Source: Terriglobia bacterium (GTDB lineage: Bacteria > Acidobacteriota > Terriglobia > JAIQFV01). Taken from it: a DNA stretch of 35,998 bases. Numbering within the stretch: position 1 is the stretch's first letter; each line of letters starts with the position of its first letter. Positions 1 to 9,595 of this stretch are shown here, one piece after another. The position numbers were made by a program, and so were the translations under genes. The notes under the pieces are model-generated. The model was given only the letters and a program-made list of their open reading frames with translations. It was not told the origin of the DNA and ran no database searches. The stretch is from NCBI GenBank assembly GCA_020072965.1, contig JAIQFY010000010.1, positions 1 through 35,998 on the forward strand. The letters run 5' to 3'.

Positions 1-2270
1 GAACCATCGGATTGGAGAACATAAACGCCCCCAGGTTGAATCGCATATGCAAAGGAAGAATCCGGGTTCCCTCCAACGGGTGCGATAGTGAGCGGTGATC
101 CATCGTTCTTAAAGATTCGAAGAGTGCCTGTCTCCCGAGTCGTAGAGGTGTTCAACAAGATCAGCGTGGTTTTATATCCGCCGCCATCGACCACATGGGG
201 AAAGTAAAGAGGATCGGAATTCAGTGGCTTGGTTTCATCCGCAATGGGAGTACTCGTGATAAGGGTTTCCTCTCGCTGGTTTGTGGTGAGACGTAAAGCC
301 ACAACCGAAAGGGGGTGGCTATTGGAGCTTTTGAGTTCGAGTGATCCAAACCGGGTGGTACTGGAGAAATCCGCCGGCAAAATGAAATCGGGTGCGAGGT
401 CGCTGAGCTGATCGATAAATTTGGCTCGATGGGCTCCGGGCGCGAGGGTCCCATTTCCGATGGCCAGGATCCCCCCGTTTGTGTCGCGTAGAGCGTAAGT
501 AACATTCGAAGTGGTGCTGCCCAGATTGACAACTGCAAAGCCCGTATTGACGTCAGTCGTGCCGACCTGAATCGCGTCGGACTTCGCAGCAATGCCACGG
601 CGATAATCGATGAAGATTCGGGCTGCGGGAGTGGGCGGTGAAGCGGGGACTCCGACCTCACTGACCACAGCGCCACTTTGTGTGAGACTGAACACTGCGG
701 TCCCATAGGGCGTACTTCCCGCTTCGACGTTCAACTCAGCATAGCCGGCCTGAGTAAGACCAGTGCTCCCGATGGTCGACATAAAAGAAGCTCCGCCTCC
801 TGACACGGATAAGCGGAGTGAGGAGTTGCCACTGCTCCTTCCGATCCTGAGAGAGTAGTCGTGAATCCCGGTGCAACCGATGATATCCATCGCCGTGACG
901 GAGAAAGAAAACGTTCCCCCCAAAAGAGGCGTCCCTGAGAGGGTGCCGGTCGATGAGAACGAAAGACCGGGTGGCAAGAAACCCTGGGAGAGGGCGAAAC
1001 GATAAGTGCCTACACCGCCACTCGCACCAAGGGATTGGTTGTATGCGGCCCCTGACATCCCGTCCGAAAGGGTGGCCGGCTGTAGAATGATACTTGGACA
1101 AGACAAGGAGCACATATTAATCATGAGGGATGAGAGGCGAAGGCTACCGCCGATCACCACAAGGTCCGTCCTGCCATCTCCGGTGAAATCACCTGCCAAA
1201 ACGAGCGCGGGAGCAGATACTGTGGGGAATCCAACCGCAGCCTGGAAGGATCCATCGCCATGACCCAATAAAATCGATAAGCTATTGGAGTCAGAATCTG
1301 TCACTGCCAGATCCAGCACTCCGTCGCTATTGAAGTCCCCAACGACAACAGTATTCGGCCCCGCTCCTGCAGGATAATTCACAGGGGCCTGGAAGGTTCC
1401 ATCGCCATTGCCCAAGAGGATTGAGACATTATTAGAGCCAGTGTCCACTACAGCCAGATCAAGCCTGCCGTCGCCATTGAAATCTCCCACGGTAATGGAA
1501 TGAGGTCCTGATCCCACCGGGTAGTTCGCAGGGTCCTGAAAGGTTCCATTCCCTTTGCTAAGAAAAATGGACACATTTTCAGACTGAAAATCTGCCGCAG
1601 CAAGATCAGCCTTGCCGTCCCCACTGAAGTCCCCCACTGCGAGTGCATATGGAGTAGCTCCCAGCGGATAGCTTGCAGTTCCCTGAAACGTCCCATCCCC
1701 CCTTCCAAGCAAAACCGTTACTCCCCCAAAGCTCCCCCTTGCAGCCGTTATTGCTAAATCGGCCCCGCCGTCCAAGTTGAAGTCCCCCACTTGAACTGCA
1801 AAGATAGGATGGACGTGGGGAGAATTGTCTGTAAGGAAATCCACTGGAGGCTGAAAAGTTCCGTCGCCATTTCCGAGCAGCACCGCCACGCCGAAGGGCA
1901 TACTATGGCCTATCGCTAAGTCGGCCTTGCCGTCATTATTGAAGTCTCCAACGGCGATCGGCCCCAAGAATCCTTGCATGGCATAACTTGCGCCGGTTTG
2001 GAAGGTGCCGTCCCCGTTCCCCAGCAGGATCATCACTTCCCCTCCTCCTAATCCTGCCAGATCCGCCTTCCCATCTCTGTTGAAATCGCCTACCGCGAGA
2101 GGGCCGAAGTTAGCGCTCAGTGTGGTCACCGCAAAACTCGGGGTGGGGCAACCGGCGCTTGCTTCCAAAGCAGAAATGAAACTGAGGCAACATACGACGA
2201 CAAAAAGAACCCATCTCCAAAGCGATAAGAGAAGATTGGCGCCCACGCCGGCTTTCTTGATTATGATCAT
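1..2270 (-). CDS. Secreted FG-GAP/VCBS repeat protein, C-terminus beyond window
   Basis: The frame is open from ATG 2270 to the window edge (at least 756 codons), so the gene is partial. An AGGAGG sits 10 nt before the start. Residues 1-45 are a basic, hydrophobic signal peptide. Six full FG-GAP-type repeats follow, each with a VGDFNxDGxxDLA calcium-loop motif and ending near GDGTFQ, plus one degenerate seventh; such repeats usually build an extracellular beta-propeller. Next comes a putative Ig-like domain (PATLSDG to FSVTA), then a region with ALRLTTNQRE and FPHVVDGGGYKTTLILLN. That last region resembles a module also present in the secreted protein at 10065. The protein is probably exported to the cell surface or medium. 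Its ligand is unknown; adhesion or glycan binding would be a guess. The domain calls are firm, the function is open. Confidence 0.88.
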   Translation of the reverse strand, partial: MIIIKKAGVGANLLLSLWRWVLFVVVCCLSFISALEASAGCPTPSFAVTTLSANFGPLAVGDFNRDGKADLAGLGGGEVMILLGNGDGTFQTGASYAMQGFLGPIAVGDFNNDGKADLAIGHSMPFGVAVLLGNGDGTFQPPVDFLTDNSPHVHPIFAVQVGDFNLDGGADLAITAARGSFGGVTVLLGRGDGTFQGTASYPLGATPYALAVGDFSGDGKADLAAADFQSENVSIFLSKGNGTFQDPANYPVGSGPHSITVGDFNGDGRLDLAVVDTGSNNVSILLGNGDGTFQAPVNYPAGAGPNTVVVGDFNSDGVLDLAVTDSDSNSLSILLGHGDGSFQAAVGFPTVSAPALVLAGDFTGDGRTDLVVIGGSLRLSSLMINMCSLSCPSIILQPATLSDGMSGAAYNQSLGASGGVGTYRFALSQGFLPPGLSFSSTGTLSGTPLLGGTFSFSVTAMDIIGCTGIHDYSLRIGRSSGNSSLRLSVSGGGASFMSTIGSTGLTQAGYAELNVEAGSTPYGTAVFSLTQSGAVVSEVGVPASPPTPAARIFIDYRRGIAAKSDAIQVGTTDVNTGFAVVNLGSTTSNVTYALRDTNGGILAIGNGTLAPGAHRAKFIDQLSDLAPDFILPADFSSTTRFGSLELKSSNSHPLSVVALRLTTNQREETLITSTPIADETKPLNSDPLYFPHVVDGGGYKTTLILLNTSTTRETGTLRIFKNDGSPLTIAPVGGNPDSSFAYAIQPGGVYVLQSDG

Positions 2271-3129: not shown

Positions 3130-3160
3130 CCGGGATGAATCAAAGAGCGATTCATCCCGG
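3130..3160. repeat. Perfect 12-bp inverted repeat, 7-nt loop
   Basis: CCGGGATGAATC (3130-3141) pairs with 3149-3160 around a 7-nt loop. It lies 37 nt after the preceding palindrome and has the same loop length but an unrelated stem. It sits about 190 nt before the sigma-LRR gene and has no T-tract. Confidence 0.8.
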
Positions 3161-3349
3161 CTACCAATCTAATCCGCCGCCTCCAAGTGTCATTTTCATG
3201 CCCTCGACACCCCCGGTCCTCGGGCGACGGACGACTCCCTCCGGTTATTTAAAGGCATGAAAACTGGTATATTCCTTAGCGAGTCATCACACCCTCGTCT
3301 TGCATTCCGGGTCTTTATTCATGGAGGGCTCTTGCCGGGCAAAGAACGA

Positions 3350-5455
3350 ATGATGTCGTTAGTGCGGGCGGCACAAGCGGGTGATGACCTCGCTTTCGCG
3401 GAGCTGGTTCGCTCGTACCAGAACATGGCGGTGGCTTATGCCAATTCTATCCTGGGGGATTACCACCTCGCCGAGGATGCGTCGCAGGAGGCCTTCGTAG
3501 ATGCCTATCGAGAATTGTCGTCATTGCGCGAGCCAGCCGCATTCGCGGCTTGGTTTCGCACTATCCTCTTTAAACACTGCGACCGTTTGACGCGCCGCAA
3601 GCGACATCCGATCACCGGCCTAAATGCTGCTTTTGAAGTGGCGTCTCCACATCCCTCGCCACACGAAACCCTGGAGTCGCAAGATGCACAAACCCTTGTC
3701 CGGGACGCCGTCTCGACTCTCTCCGATTCCGAGCGCGCTGTCGTATTGCTCTATTACATGAGCGAACATTCGCACGCGACGATCGCCGAATTTCTGGGAG
3801 TGACCTCCAACACTGTCAAGACCCGGTTATACTCGGCGCGCCAGCGATTAAGAAAACACATGAGATACCTCGAAGAAGACTTCGAAGCAGCCCGGCCGTC
3901 GAGCAACCCGCGTTTTGCAGGGCGCGTCTTGAGCGCCACCTTGCCGCTGCAGCTCTATTTCATCGACGACGACGGCAGCAAACAGGCAGCCGGGAGCACC
4001 GTGGCTTCCCGAACTGCGGATGTGCCCGCTTCCGAAACCTGGTTGATTGAGCCTCGTCGGACGCTGAATGGTAAAGACTGGGACACGATCATTGGCTTAG
4101 TGAAGGATATGCACATTCCGGGCCTGGGCGCTACGGAGCAGATGACTGATGCCCTACTTGAACGCATCTCGAAGCTCGACCACCTGACCTATCTCGACCT
4201 GCACGATTCCGGAGAACTGACCGATACTGGTCTGCGGCACCTGGCGCGCCTGCCGCAGTTACAGCATCTCAATTTGAGTTGTCACCAGATCACGGATCAC
4301 GGTCTCGAGGTCTTGCGTCACCTGCCACAGCTTAAGTCATTTGAGATTTATCACCAGGGACAAGTGTCAGACGCAGGCTTGGCCAATCTGGCGCACTGCG
4401 ATCATCTGGAGCGCGTGAATCTTATGGGGACCGAGACCGGTGACGGCGTCATCCAAGCCCTGACTGGAAAGGCGCAACTCAGGGAGTTCTTTGCGGGGAC
4501 CAAGGTTACCGATGCCGGCCTCAAACTGTTCCACCAGTTTCCCGTGTTCAAGACGTGGAGGGGTGGCCGGGCGGCGATGTCTCTAATGTCATTCTTGGCC
4601 CACCCTAATTATCTCTGGCTGAACCTCAAAGCGCCGCTGACGAACAAGGGACTTCAAAATCTGGCGGGCCTCGAAGGACTTTACGCGCTGAACCTTTTTG
4701 GAACGACGGGACATGCACCCTTCGAAGCCAGCAACACTGCGATTACTCCTGCCGGCTTGAGTCATCTGGCGGGTCTTCCTAATCTGGGCTGGCTCGCCTG
4801 TTGCGCCCAGCTTTGTACCGATGATGCGATGAGACACATCAGGGGAATGCCCCGCCTTCGATTCCTGATGTGCCAGGATGCGGTAGCGGGCGACGACGGC
4901 TTTTTGGAATTGGGGCGCTCGCCCTCCATTGAATACATTTGGGGACGCCGCTGCTACAACCTGACGGGGCGAGGTTTTGCCGCCCTGCGGGCGATGCCGT
5001 CGCTGCGCGGACTCGCGGTGAGCTGCAGGAACGTCGATGACGAGGGATTGTCGGCATTGCCCCGCTTTCCCGCGCTGCGGGAATTCATGCCGATGGACGT
5101 CGCCGACGATGGATTTCGTCATGTGGGCCGATGCCAGCAACTCGAAGCATTGCACTGCATGTATTGTCCCGGAATGACCGACACGGCGACCGGGTATCTC
5201 GCCGGCTTGTCCAACCTGAAATCGTATCAAGTCTGGGGCGCTCAGATTACGGATCGCAGTCTGGAGATTCTGGGAAGGATGTCATCACTCGAACATCTGC
5301 GTTTTTATAGGTGCGATGGCATCACCAATGGAGGCCTGGTTTCCCTGGCTGACCTCCCGCGACTGCGTGAAGTCGATCTCGAGGGATTAAGAAGCATTAC
5401 ACCGGAAGGGGCTGCAGTGTTTCCCGCCCAAATCCACGTGAACTATTCGGCGTGA
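3350..5455 (+). CDS. ECF-type sigma factor fused to a C-terminal leucine-rich-repeat domain
   Basis: Residue numbers count from the upstream in-frame ATG at 3257. Sigma region 2 spans about 45-115, with a DASQEAFVDAYREL core and AAWFRTILFKHC. Region 4 spans about 145-202, with LSDSERAVVLLYY and the helix-turn-helix TIAEFLGVTSNTVKTRLYSA. After a linker (about 205-270), some 460 residues form LRR units of the LTDTGLRHLARLPQLQHLNLS type, as in amphipathic RNI-like LRRs. No transmembrane segment is visible, so the protein is probably cytoplasmic. I infer that the LRR part binds a partner or ligand that controls promoter recognition. I chose ATG 3350 (codon 32) because ECF proteins normally start just before the LVRAAQAGD segment. 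ATG 3257 has AAAGG only 1 nt away and cannot be excluded. The length of 701 aa compares with about 180-200 for a plain ECF factor. Confidence 0.85.
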   Translation: MMSLVRAAQAGDDLAFAELVRSYQNMAVAYANSILGDYHLAEDASQEAFVDAYRELSSLREPAAFAAWFRTILFKHCDRLTRRKRHPITGLNAAFEVASPHPSPHETLESQDAQTLVRDAVSTLSDSERAVVLLYYMSEHSHATIAEFLGVTSNTVKTRLYSARQRLRKHMRYLEEDFEAARPSSNPRFAGRVLSATLPLQLYFIDDDGSKQAAGSTVASRTADVPASETWLIEPRRTLNGKDWDTIIGLVKDMHIPGLGATEQMTDALLERISKLDHLTYLDLHDSGELTDTGLRHLARLPQLQHLNLSCHQITDHGLEVLRHLPQLKSFEIYHQGQVSDAGLANLAHCDHLERVNLMGTETGDGVIQALTGKAQLREFFAGTKVTDAGLKLFHQFPVFKTWRGGRAAMSLMSFLAHPNYLWLNLKAPLTNKGLQNLAGLEGLYALNLFGTTGHAPFEASNTAITPAGLSHLAGLPNLGWLACCAQLCTDDAMRHIRGMPRLRFLMCQDAVAGDDGFLELGRSPSIEYIWGRRCYNLTGRGFAALRAMPSLRGLAVSCRNVDDEGLSALPRFPALREFMPMDVADDGFRHVGRCQQLEALHCMYCPGMTDTATGYLAGLSNLKSYQVWGAQITDRSLEILGRMSSLEHLRFYRCDGITNGGLVSLADLPRLREVDLEGLRSITPEGAAVFPAQIHVNYSA

Positions 5456-5719
5456 ATTCCTCTACAATCCTCGGCGGGCCAACTCCATCGGATAGAATTG
5501 TGGAAGGGGGCTTCGTGTTCCGATGCAGGCCCCAAGAACCGGCCAGCGTCGGGCTTTGTGACGGAGCGCCTTCATCCCGGGAACTGCGAGAAGCAAGAGG
5601 GCTACACAACACCGGTCGATTCAATTACAATTGGGAAACGATATCTCCTAGTGATTGCGGATGTCCATTCGGACATACGGTCTTCAAGGGAAAGACCAAT
5701 TCGGAGGGAGACTAGTGAC

Positions 5720-6247
5720 GTGATCGAGAGGCCTGCTGATAAGGAATATGCCCCATTCTTCGCCGGCTACGTCGCTCTGGTCACCGAGCCGGATGTGATG
5801 GGAATCCTCGGAAATCAGCCCGCGGAGTTGACAGAATTGGCCGGACGGGTTTCGGCGGAGCGGGAGAGATTCCGCTATGCCGACGGCAAATGGAGTATCC
5901 GCGAGGTGTTCGGTCACCTGGTGGATGCCGACCGGGTATTTGGCCATCGAGCCTTTTGCATCGGCCGGGGAGAGCAAGCTGCCCTTCCCGGATTCGAGGA
6001 AAATCAATACGTGGCACTGTCGCATTATGATGAACGGACGCTCGCGGAATTGGCCACTGAGTTTACGGCGGTGCGCAAGGCGAACCTCATTTTTCTCGAC
6101 GCGCTGGATGACGAAGCGTCGGCGCGCACCGGCGTCGCCAACAATAATCCGGTGTCTGTGCGGGCCCTGGCGTTCATCATGGCGGGGCACCTTCGGCATC
6201 ACTTCAGCATGCTGCGATCCCGCTACGGCGTCTCAGCCGGGATATGA
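5720..6247 (+). CDS. DinB-like (DinB_2) four-helix metal-binding protein
   Basis: This 175-aa protein has the pattern of the DinB/YfiT superfamily. It contains KWSIREVFGHLVDADRVFGHR in the first helical pair and a C-terminal GHLRHHFSML, giving the histidines that normally bind one metal ion. Members act as thiol-dependent transferases or are uncharacterised; the substrate cannot be read from sequence. The start is GTG 5720 with a GGAGGGAG 9 nt upstream. The open frame extends further back to about 5498, but that part has no domain and poor composition. The gene lies 264 nt after the sigma-LRR gene on the same strand, so co-transcription is possible but not shown. Confidence 0.8.
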   Translation: MIERPADKEYAPFFAGYVALVTEPDVMGILGNQPAELTELAGRVSAERERFRYADGKWSIREVFGHLVDADRVFGHRAFCIGRGEQAALPGFEENQYVALSHYDERTLAELATEFTAVRKANLIFLDALDDEASARTGVANNNPVSVRALAFIMAGHLRHHFSMLRSRYGVSAGI

Positions 6248-6772: not shown

Positions 6773-7234
6773 TTACTGCCAGTCTGGAAAATGCAATGAA
6801 GCTTGTCTAGCTTTTCGAAGGGAATTGATCGACCCCCCCTTCTCCAGCTCATCGACGGCTGCTCCTAATGTGTCTTCGATCTCATTTCTCGGCACCGCAA
6901 TAACCAATTCTTCGCGTGTCCGGCCCAACTCTCCGTTTTCGGTTTGAAATCCCGCTTTCGGAATAAAAATGCAGCAAGGTAAGAGGTCGGGAAGGTACGG
7001 AAGCCCTTCGGGCATGAAACTCAGGTACCTTGCGAGATCTTCCGGTTCATTCAGGCTCAAAATCATCAGATCAAAATCGGCTCCAGAGAGATTTGCATGG
7101 AGGCCGTCGTCTCTCAGGCTGATGTGCCGAACCGTGCAGCGATACTTGAAAAACAAGTCAACCCAGAAAAGCGAAGGGTGGGGGTCACAATTAACCAGAA
7201 GGACCTTGATGCGGTTGTCTAAAAGGTGAGTCAT
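6773..7234 (-). CDS. Degenerate receiver-like hypothetical protein, 153 aa
   Basis: The N-terminal half resembles a response-regulator receiver fold. IKVLLVNCDPHP gives strand 1 with an acidic residue, and GADFDLMILSL gives the strand-3 aspartate. CCIFIPKAGF could be the strand carrying the conserved lysine. The intervening helices are poorly conserved and no output domain follows. The ATG is preceded by GGTGGA at short spacing. It could be a stand-alone or pseudo-receiver, or an unrelated alpha/beta protein. It has no neighbouring histidine kinase. Confidence 0.55.
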   Translation of the reverse strand: MTHLLDNRIKVLLVNCDPHPSLFWVDLFFKYRCTVRHISLRDDGLHANLSGADFDLMILSLNEPEDLARYLSFMPEGLPYLPDLLPCCIFIPKAGFQTENGELGRTREELVIAVPRNEIEDTLGAAVDELEKGGSINSLRKARQASLHFPDWQ

Positions 7235-7863
7235 GATCCACCGTCTAATCCAGGGTCCGGGGTTCTCTAGTTGATCAAAATACTACTTGACGGGGTATAC
7301 AAACAGCCTCGAGTCCTCTGAATCTGAGGCCATCAATGAACCGCAGAGAGAGGGGGCACCTATACAACGATTGCAGCACACTGGAGACCAATCAGCTCAC
7401 AGGCGTCGAGACCAAATAACAGATGCACTGTCGCGTCGGCGGGGCGCAACAGATCAGGCCTCCTCATAACTCCTATCATCGTTCGGAAAATTAAATGGTG
7501 CCTTAACTACGAACCAGTTGTCCTTTCGGCCAACATTCGAGTTTGCCATGTTGCGAACCCTCTTGCCCTTCTCCAACGAGGGAGAGTTCGCATCCTAGCA
7601 ATTACAAAAGGCCTTGAAGAAACACTCTTGTTCTTCCGATTAACAAAAAGACTTAACATTCCTCCCGGTGGGGGTCGCTACCCTAGGAAGAGTATACGAA
7701 TCCCGTCTTAAAGATTCAAGTGGTTTGATCCAAACGAAATATTTCACAATACGGACGCACCAAACTGTTACCATTGAGATAAGCAAAAGACGAGGACACA
7801 CGACTCCCGGAGATGCTCCAACAAATCGAAGCACGCAGTCCTTAAATCCCACCGCCAACATTC
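7235..7863. other. Gene-free, AT-richer stretch
   Basis: About 630 nt with no convincing coding frame on either strand, no tRNA and no recognisable terminator. Base composition is visibly less GC-rich than in the flanking genes. Confidence 0.45.
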
Positions 7864-7877
7864 AGAGGGCCGAGCGA

Positions 7878-8059
7878 AGGGCGGCCCTGCCGCCCTTTAT
7901 TGCGGAATGGCTCCGCTTTTCCGGGTAGGCCCTCTTCCTCCCTCCAACTCCTACCGCTCCGTCGAGGCTAAGCCTCGTCGGAAAAGCAAGAGTAAGCAAT
8001 GTGGTTCGACTATTCACGGAAAGCCACAGGCTTCCCAAAATAATGGGCGGCAGGGCCGC
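7878..8059. repeat. Palindrome-rich non-coding element bounded by an inverted repeat
   Basis: GCGGCCCTGCCGCCC at 7881-7895 recurs in inverted form at 8045-8059; extended to 7901/8039 the match is 20 of 21. Inside lie further small stem-loops: AGGGCGG/CCGCCCT at 7878-7896, GCGGA/TCCGC at 7902-7916, CGAGGCT/AGCCTCG at 7963-7977, and an imperfect one at 8018-8035. The translated frames are low-complexity and do not look like proteins. The element is probably a dispersed structured repeat; whether it is mobile cannot be told from one copy. Confidence 0.6.
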
Positions 8060-8263
8060 TTCCACCTCACAGATGTGCTGACGCGTGTTCCGATTCACCT
8101 GTCAAATTGTTTTCTCCAGGACCAGAATTCCGGGGTTCGAAGAACGTGAGGTTCAAAGCTCGGTTTCGAGATTCCCTTTAAACCGGAAGCGGTGGTAGGA
8201 TTAACGTGATTTCACAGGGCCCCCTCAAGTTGAGGACAATTTCCTGGTTCGGAGGTTGGATTG

Positions 8264-9595
8264 ATGAGACGCGCCTGCCTGTTGATCATTTTCATTGCTT
8301 CCACATTTTGCCTCAGCGCGCAACAGCATCCCGTTGATGCGCTCAAAGTCATTCAGGAGTTCGATCGGATCGCTGCTCGAGACCTTTGGCCGGGATTCGA
8401 GCCTGCAAAGACGCCAATTGAATTCTACGACGGAATAAGTACTTATCTTTGCAACCACCCTTCCCCACCGGATGGATTCCGGCCGGTTCCCGGTCGAAGA
8501 AACGTTTATCTCTATGCAGGCCAGCATGAAACCGTGCGCGCCAACACCGGCACGGAAGTCAACGGCATCCCCACCGCCACGGCAGATGTTTCCAACCCGA
8601 GGAATTCTTCGGCGGAGGAACTCGCCGCTTTGCTGCTTCACGAGGCATTCCATGTTTTTGAGCACCAGCGCTACCCGAAATGGGGCGCCAATGAAGTGGA
8701 TCTGTTCACTTATCCCGTGGACAATCCCGCGCTGCTGGCCGAGAGGCGGCTTGAGAGTGCTGCGCTGGTTCGGGCGTTGGGCGCGAAGGACGACAAGGAC
8801 GCAAATTGCTGGGCCAGGAGAGCACTCGAAATTCGCGCCAAGCGCTTCGGGGCGATCCCGGCGAATGCCGCAGCTTATGAGCGGCAGGTGGAACTGTTTG
8901 AAGGGCTGGCGCAGTATGTTCAGTTCCGCTCCATCGGGAAGTCGGCCGCCCTCACGGCCGATGACTTTCCACCCGACCAGGGACAGGTTCGCCAGCGCGG
9001 GTATGCAACCGGACAGGCGCTCGGGTTACTGCTCGAGCGCTTCGATCCCGCTTGGAAATCAAAGCTTGGCGCCGAGCAGGGTGGATCGTTGGATGAGCTT
9101 CTCAGCGACCGCTTGCGTGGAATGACAATTCATGCCACATGCGACTTTGCTGCGGAGGAATCCGACGCCGCCGTGGCGCGGGCCCGACGTGATATTGCCG
9201 AATCGGCCGCCAACCGGAAGCGGCAGAAGCAGGAGTTTCTCGACGCCCGGGGAACCCGCATTGAAATCGTCGCGGGCAAAGAACCTCTCTGGCCGAATGC
9301 TTTTGACCCTTGGAATGTCATGATTCTCGGCAACAACGAAATCCTGCACACACGCTGGATCAAGCTGGGCAACGGCAGCGGCACCATTGAAGTCCTCGGG
9401 CACTCAGCCTTGACAGAGGCGGCGGGCACTCACCCTCTTTTCAACGGGGTTCATCGGCTGATCGTTACCGGTCTGGCCGACCCCAAGGTTTCCGTCAGCG
9501 AAGGCAAGGTGACCCTCACGGCCAGTGGCGTCAAGGCCACCTTTACCGGAACGGTTCAACGAGAACCGAACGTCGTTCGCATTGTCCTGCCATGA
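8264..9595 (+). CDS. Secreted HExxH zinc metalloprotease-like protein
   Basis: The 443-aa precursor has a signal peptide (RRACLLIIFIASTFCLSA, then QQ) and should be exported. LLHEAFHVFEH (HExxH at about residues 126-130) is a zinc-binding helix, and ELFEGLAQYVQ about 80 residues later supplies a plausible third ligand, Glu 213, as in gluzincins. The last 110 residues are rich in beta strands and may be a separate domain. GGAGG at 8251 is 8 nt before ATG 8264; a TTG at 8261 is less likely. I do not recognise a named peptidase family. Activity is inferred from the motif alone. No partner gene is adjacent. Confidence 0.78.
   Translation: MRRACLLIIFIASTFCLSAQQHPVDALKVIQEFDRIAARDLWPGFEPAKTPIEFYDGISTYLCNHPSPPDGFRPVPGRRNVYLYAGQHETVRANTGTEVNGIPTATADVSNPRNSSAEELAALLLHEAFHVFEHQRYPKWGANEVDLFTYPVDNPALLAERRLESAALVRALGAKDDKDANCWARRALEIRAKRFGAIPANAAAYERQVELFEGLAQYVQFRSIGKSAALTADDFPPDQGQVRQRGYATGQALGLLLERFDPAWKSKLGAEQGGSLDELLSDRLRGMTIHATCDFAAEESDAAVARARRDIAESAANRKRQKQEFLDARGTRIEIVAGKEPLWPNAFDPWNVMILGNNEILHTRWIKLGNGSGTIEVLGHSALTEAAGTHPLFNGVHRLIVTGLADPKVSVSEGKVTLTASGVKATFTGTVQREPNVVRIVLP

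Follow-up and report, generated by a model that had tools for sequence, protein, structure and literature searches.

Most ECF sigma factors receive their signal from a separate anti-sigma protein. Repeat modules such as leucine-rich repeats (LRRs) and ankyrin repeats typically bind proteins, and ribonuclease inhibitor holds its enzyme. At least 26 ECF groups carry regulatory extensions, which include TPR, WD40, SnoaL, cysteine-rich and anti-sigma-like forms (PMC8999054). Among these, the extensions of ECF41 (SnoaL) and IutY are known to be inhibitory, control of ECF42 by its TPR extension is proposed to act via protein interaction, and the WD40-like repeats of the ECF57 extension are thought to bind proteins (PMC8999054).

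Here we analyze a gene from a soil-type acidobacterium, lying in a stretch of 35,998 nucleotides (the window), in which a sigma factor and a large LRR horseshoe form one protein. Its closest described mechanism is that of ECF42: both are soluble ECFs with a large C-terminal repeat domain and no anti-sigma factor, but ECF42 carries TPR helices (~200 residues) rather than LRRs, and the fusion has no TPR match and no YCII-type gene among the neighbors examined. ECF57 likewise joins an ECF to a C-terminal repeat domain; its repeats are WD40-like (in some members), its model member comes from a planctomycete and it has a conserved sigma2–sigma4 cysteine pair, whereas the fusion has no WD40 match and one cysteine in its sigma half. 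ECF41/SigJ is also a one-component ECF, in which a fused SnoaL domain modulates activity, and ECF41 is marked by a WLPEP motif in the sigma2–sigma4 linker (PMC3426412); the fusion has neither this motif nor a SnoaL match in Pfam. In CorE/ECF238, too, the protein's own C-terminal domain sets activity, but that domain is small, cysteine-rich and metal-binding, with a CXC motif that occurs nowhere in the fusion.

The original prediction knew of no characterized system of this kind, a claim that holds in part. We found no described ECF family with an LRR or ankyrin extension in the literature searched, the 2021 ECF classification lying outside its scope, and the 2022 ECF review mentions neither leucine nor ankyrin; ECFs with other regulatory extensions are, however, known. 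An LRR on a sigma factor is possibly new, and the 2021 classification may mention one.

One conserved frame joins sigma factor and LRR

As first reported, sigma regions 2 and 4 and the LRRs lie in one uninterrupted frame (Table 1). The forward strand is open from 3257 to 5455 with zero internal stops, codon-position GC is coding-like all along the fusion frame, and Pfam finds Sigma70_r2, Sigma70_r4_2 and LRR_14/LRR_6 (1e-11/1e-9), every match exceeding its own curated cut-off. PF04542, PF08281 and a TIGR02937 score of 84 bits (cut-off 42.9) identify an ECF sigma-70 factor, and the domain search returned no sigma domain beyond regions 2 and 4 (no region 1.1 or 3). The fusion also lacks a membrane helix, in line with the original prediction, its best 19-residue Kyte–Doolittle mean being 1.05.

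The only other genome of the genus, G001, encodes an ortholog (L013) that is 80% identical across all 707 residues, with an identical junction and no stops. Between the two genes dN/dS is 0.14 in the sigma part, 0.21 in the linker and 0.19 in the LRR, so every part of the fusion is under purifying selection. Because the same fusion recurs at this identity and with these ratios, an assembly join or frameshift, a worry voiced in the original prediction, or a decaying fusion is extremely improbable; we found no support for an artefact in the source genome, a draft of 108 contigs, and the intact second copy would mislead only if one error were common to both assemblies.

The fusion is missing from the single sister-genus genome examined in the family. 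Within the source genome the fusion protein has 28 matches, nearly all of them ECF-like sigma factors, and just two, judged by open frame, far exceed 300 residues: the fusion and an ankyrin paralog on contig C24. Among the Acidobacteriota genomes sampled (up to G714, not exhaustive), the LRR form is confined to the window's genus; the only wide scan beyond Acidobacteriota used patterns derived from the fusion protein alone.

Table 1. Coordinates of the fusion gene, its parts and its surroundings in the window.
Feature	Position	Strand	Details
FG-GAP repeat protein, divergent, upstream	3-2270	-	
12-bp perfect inverted repeat CCGGGATGAATC-N7-GATTCATCCCGG	3130..3160	+	identical in G001
Putative promoter, conserved block, TGAAAAC-N16-GAGTCA (ECF-like) overlapping TGGTATATT (extended -10 like)	3258..3286	+	conserved in G001
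Shine-Dalgarno-like GGAGGG	3323..3328	+	conserved in both genomes of the genus, ahead of TTG 3332
Whole gene, ECF sigma–LRR fusion, 707 aa	3332..5455	+	likely start TTG 3332; alternatives ATG 3350, ATG 3257
Sigma-70 region 2 domain	3404..3604	+	Pfam PF04542 2.7e-10; helices H19-41, H44-64, H68-90, pLDDT mostly high
Sigma-70 region 4 domain (helix-turn-helix)	3695..3850	+	Pfam PF08281 1.2e-12
Acidic sigma–LRR tether, mostly disordered	3884..4021	+	pLDDT <50 at residues 185-204, 219-230; pI 4.4
Clade motif RPSxxxxF[AS] (here RPSSNPRFA), directly after region 4	3893..3919	+	14/14 clade members, 0/24 other ECFs
LRR module, 470 aa, ~17-18 repeats, horseshoe, including N-terminal cap (IEPR...DWD)	4043..5452	+	Pfam, alignment, AlphaFold2
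Insert of about 9 residues (near 457-466), only in sigma-fused LRRs	4700..4729	+	alignment; low pLDDT 458-464
Best-conserved LRR family stretch (residues 514-636): Q515, W537-G-R539, C541, RGF, MPMD, C609-M-Y-C612	4871..5239	+	
DinB-like gene (DinB_2), downstream	5498-6247 (alternatively about 5700-6247)		absent at this place in G001

Start site, upstream DNA and neighboring genes

The gene had been taken to start at ATG 3350, which is not conserved, L013 having ATAACG at that place. ATG 3257 was rejected as a start: from there to 3331 the DNA does not evolve as coding, with substitutions between the window and G001 of 6/4/6 over the codon positions, against 25/10/65 in the sigma part. The conserved GGAGGG makes TTG 3332 the likely start, and residues of the fusion are numbered from it.

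The promoter-like block was read by eye both as ECF-type and as extended -10, and a consensus promoter scan did not flag it. No intact copy lies elsewhere in the source genome, where the sole other near match has two mismatches, so we propose no regulon. The inverted repeat has an RNA fold z-score of -3.7 and no match in Rfam. We considered it as an operator of the fusion gene and set this aside: a two-mismatch copy sits in a Tol-type operon of the source genome, between ExbD/TolR-like and TolA-like genes, and G001 has one copy with one mismatch at another place, so the repeat may be a dispersed hairpin.

No anti-sigma gene adjoins the fusion, as predicted: the HxxxCxxC zinc-anti-sigma motif is absent from the first 12 kb of the window, the upstream part of this search spanning 3.3 kb because the window begins at a contig end. 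In the G001 region the motif has a single match, within a frame of 74 codons that overlaps the sigma gene. Among the neighbors examined there is neither an anti-sigma factor nor an evident partner for the fusion. The DinB_2 gene, given its absence from the sister species, appears to be a recent gain or loss; upstream genes differ between the two genomes, and gene order is the same from 6773 on. There, at 6773–7234 on the minus strand, lies a gene for a small receiver-like protein, with no Pfam match and at the same place in G001.

The sigma half belongs to a clade with varied extensions

In a tree, 14 extended ECFs form one clade (support 100/99), to which the fusion belongs by position, by the RPSxxxxF[AS] motif and by its C-terminal extension. 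Every usable clade member, 14 of 14 after exclusion of the fragments L065 and L066, carries such an extension. The modules are LRRs in the window's genus, ankyrin repeats (L056–L060, L002 and L024), tandem GNAT plus DUF3471 (L062 and L067; L063 ends at a contig edge) and a DUF3471-like domain alone (L064 and, by sequence likeness only, L061); reading of the sequence is the basis for calling L060 ankyrin-bearing and the GNAT part tandem. At least three module changes fall within the clade on the tree. The search for sigma 2–4 plus LRR architectures urged by the original prediction returned the G001 ortholog; with ankyrin, GNAT and DUF3471 versions on the same clade, this fusion does not stand by itself.

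The window's sigma half and that of its genus mate form a separate branch, whose nearest relatives by path length are the ankyrin forms. These ankyrin-ECFs share the sigma clade and its motif with the fusion but have ankyrin repeats on a much shorter tether. A sigma-part profile found close relatives in 12 of 162 genomes of the class to which G436, a more distant genome, belongs. Their scores of 141–388 bits, and those of 379–385 in the window's genus, compare with ~110 for the next-ranked match within the window's class, which sets these close relatives clearly apart from ordinary ECFs. Plasmid searches with the sigma half returned nothing, or only distant ECFs that share no more than about 35% identity.

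The LRR half belongs to a family otherwise free of sigma factors

The LRR, 470 residues long, represents a distinct family whose members in distant Acidobacteriota share ~50% identity; records labelled Acidimicrobiia and Nevskia supply two more. None of the sigma-free members has a sigma factor as its fused partner. Most carry, ahead of the LRR, one or two copies of an N-terminal domain marked by LRKQAKELL and YGFxSW motifs; some members are short or cut, and in part of the family the LRR stands alone. The YGFxSW–LRR proteins of Acidobacteriota thus have the same LRR module as the fusion but a helical domain where the fusion has its sigma factor. This unnamed domain precedes the LRR in L014–L016, L020–L022, L027, L028, L071, L072 and L074, with a weak Pfam Glyoxalase_8 match in some.

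On the tree, the window LRR lies inside this sigma-free family (100/99 with L073, L019 and L020), so a domain swap at about residues 199–207 would be the simplest history; the LRR cap (YxID...IxPR) starts just past the sigma clade motif. The window LRR keeps 137 of the 151 positions that are at least 85% conserved among sigma-free members. Several of its 14 departures cluster at 613–637, and R613P, T615M, Y633Q and G635W are changes unique to sigma-fused LRRs at otherwise conserved places. The LRR half does not appear to have been built as a sigma inhibitor. Concave LRR positions show no greater overall conservation than polar helix positions (p 0.74), which leaves the binding surface without a clear location. 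PADLOC revealed no meaningful tie between the LRR fusion and defence.

Predicted structure

An AlphaFold2 model of the fusion (38 sequences; mean pLDDT 88, pTM 0.72) is confident in sigma2, sigma4 and the LRR, with low confidence at residues 91–104 and 185–230. The LRR, with pLDDT mostly >90, is modeled as a rigid horseshoe of the FBXL/ribonuclease-inhibitor fold, a curved strand–helix solenoid by both Foldseek (E 6e-16) and VIA (Z 22–27). Its nearest folds, FBXL2 (Z 27), RipG4 (Z 27), FBXL17 (Z 26), ribonuclease inhibitor (Z 23) and also TIR1/COI1, are mostly partner-binding LRRs, a likeness of fold that does not mean like function. It had been suggested that the LRR arc might pack on region 2 or 4; the model instead has a disordered tether and no confident sigma–LRR contact, an absence that proves little, as just two input sequences span both domains. 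The model of the ankyrin paralog (pLDDT 86.5, pTM 0.59) has a near-continuous helical joint from sigma4 to the ankyrin region, where confidence merely dips.

How the LRR might control the sigma factor

We give slightly better than even chances to a one-component ECF in which the LRR binds a cytoplasmic protein partner or ligand and so gates the sigma factor. A complete and presumably functional sigma2–sigma4 unit would be joined by a flexible acidic tether to the LRR horseshoe, which in the cytoplasm would act as a sensor or as a dock. The LRR would most likely bind a protein partner (or small ligand) via a conserved surface common to its sigma-free relatives, and binding would alter the ability of the sigma half to associate with RNA polymerase. 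We infer that the LRR binds something, that this binding gates the sigma factor and that control requires a partner and is not simple autoinhibition, because sigma2 and sigma4 are intact with no adjacent anti-sigma gene, both genomes of the genus retain the fusion with purifying selection acting on all its parts, the whole clade is extended and has exchanged its modules, the LRR family is elsewhere sigma-free with its conserved positions largely kept here, and the model combines a disordered tether and no confident packing with nearest folds that mostly bind partners. The neighbors weaken this reading by giving no clue, DinB being absent at that place in G001 and the upstream genes differing. 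Self-contained control, as originally proposed, fits these data, its strongest support being that the whole sigma clade carries C-terminal modules. Of the roles first offered for the LRR, that of inhibitor gained no particular support, and a ligand sensor or partner dock is likelier because the LRR family predates the fusion and also exists free of sigma factors.

We rank this gating ahead of pure intramolecular inhibition, and tethering last. In the former alternative, which we consider unlikely, the resting horseshoe would hold sigma2 or sigma4 until a signal or a protease frees the sigma factor. The inhibitory extensions of ECF41 and IutY offer precedent (PMC8999054), and the four substitutions unique to the sigma-fused LRRs, with the extra loop near 457–466, could form a sigma dock; however, the model lacks confident packing, the LRR mostly keeps the residues of a family that has no sigma partner in cis, and the other modules of the clade (ankyrin, GNAT and DUF3471) have unrelated folds, which makes a shared inhibitory surface seem improbable. 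It is less probable still that the LRR serves only to anchor the sigma factor, to a partner or at some cellular site, with no gating and with activity set by transcription of the gene. Conservation of the promoter-like block and inverted repeat between the two genomes would suit such a tether, as would the flexible linker of the model, but both upstream elements are putative, and extensions across the whole clade suggest a regulatory need.

The clade's differing plug-in C-terminal domains probably detect ligands or partners and directly gate the switch. One sigma unit with unrelated binding modules shows how new signals could reach transcription in one step, and the clade offers a natural set of proteins in which to test how an extension communicates with sigma2 and sigma4. 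With the LRR comes a fold for protein recognition, of which the literature searched gave no earlier report on a sigma factor; if the LRR gates sigma, it would make a compact, swappable switch. A bolder proposal, which we hold to be doubtful, is a plug-in platform in which the sigma unit and its fixed joint (RPSxxxxF[AS]) take unrelated sensors (LRR, ankyrin, GNAT, DUF3471) and the horseshoe, on binding a cytoplasmic protein, directly takes hold of or lets go of the sigma domains in its own chain; were it true, the sigma factor would be LRR-gated and would follow the logic of ribonuclease inhibitor or NLR receptors.

Loci of related proteins

The ankyrin-ECF paralog L002, at G000:C24:171.9–173.3 kb, falls in the same clade as the window's sigma half, and in G436 a second ankyrin protein gene comes after the ankyrin-ECF gene. 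At L062:289–2133 and L067:292–2142 (minus strand), an ECF is joined to tandem GNAT acetyltransferase domains and DUF3471, and these fusions could acetylate a partner or sense acyl-CoA. An ankyrin gene lies ~18 bp after the YGFxSW–LRR gene in L027, and in L018 a YGFxSW–ankyrin frame overlaps the LRR frame. In L018 the sigma-free LRR gene is followed directly, at 7522–9071, by an ECF-type sigma gene and then by a small gene with a CxxC-containing N-terminus, a possible anti-sigma factor.
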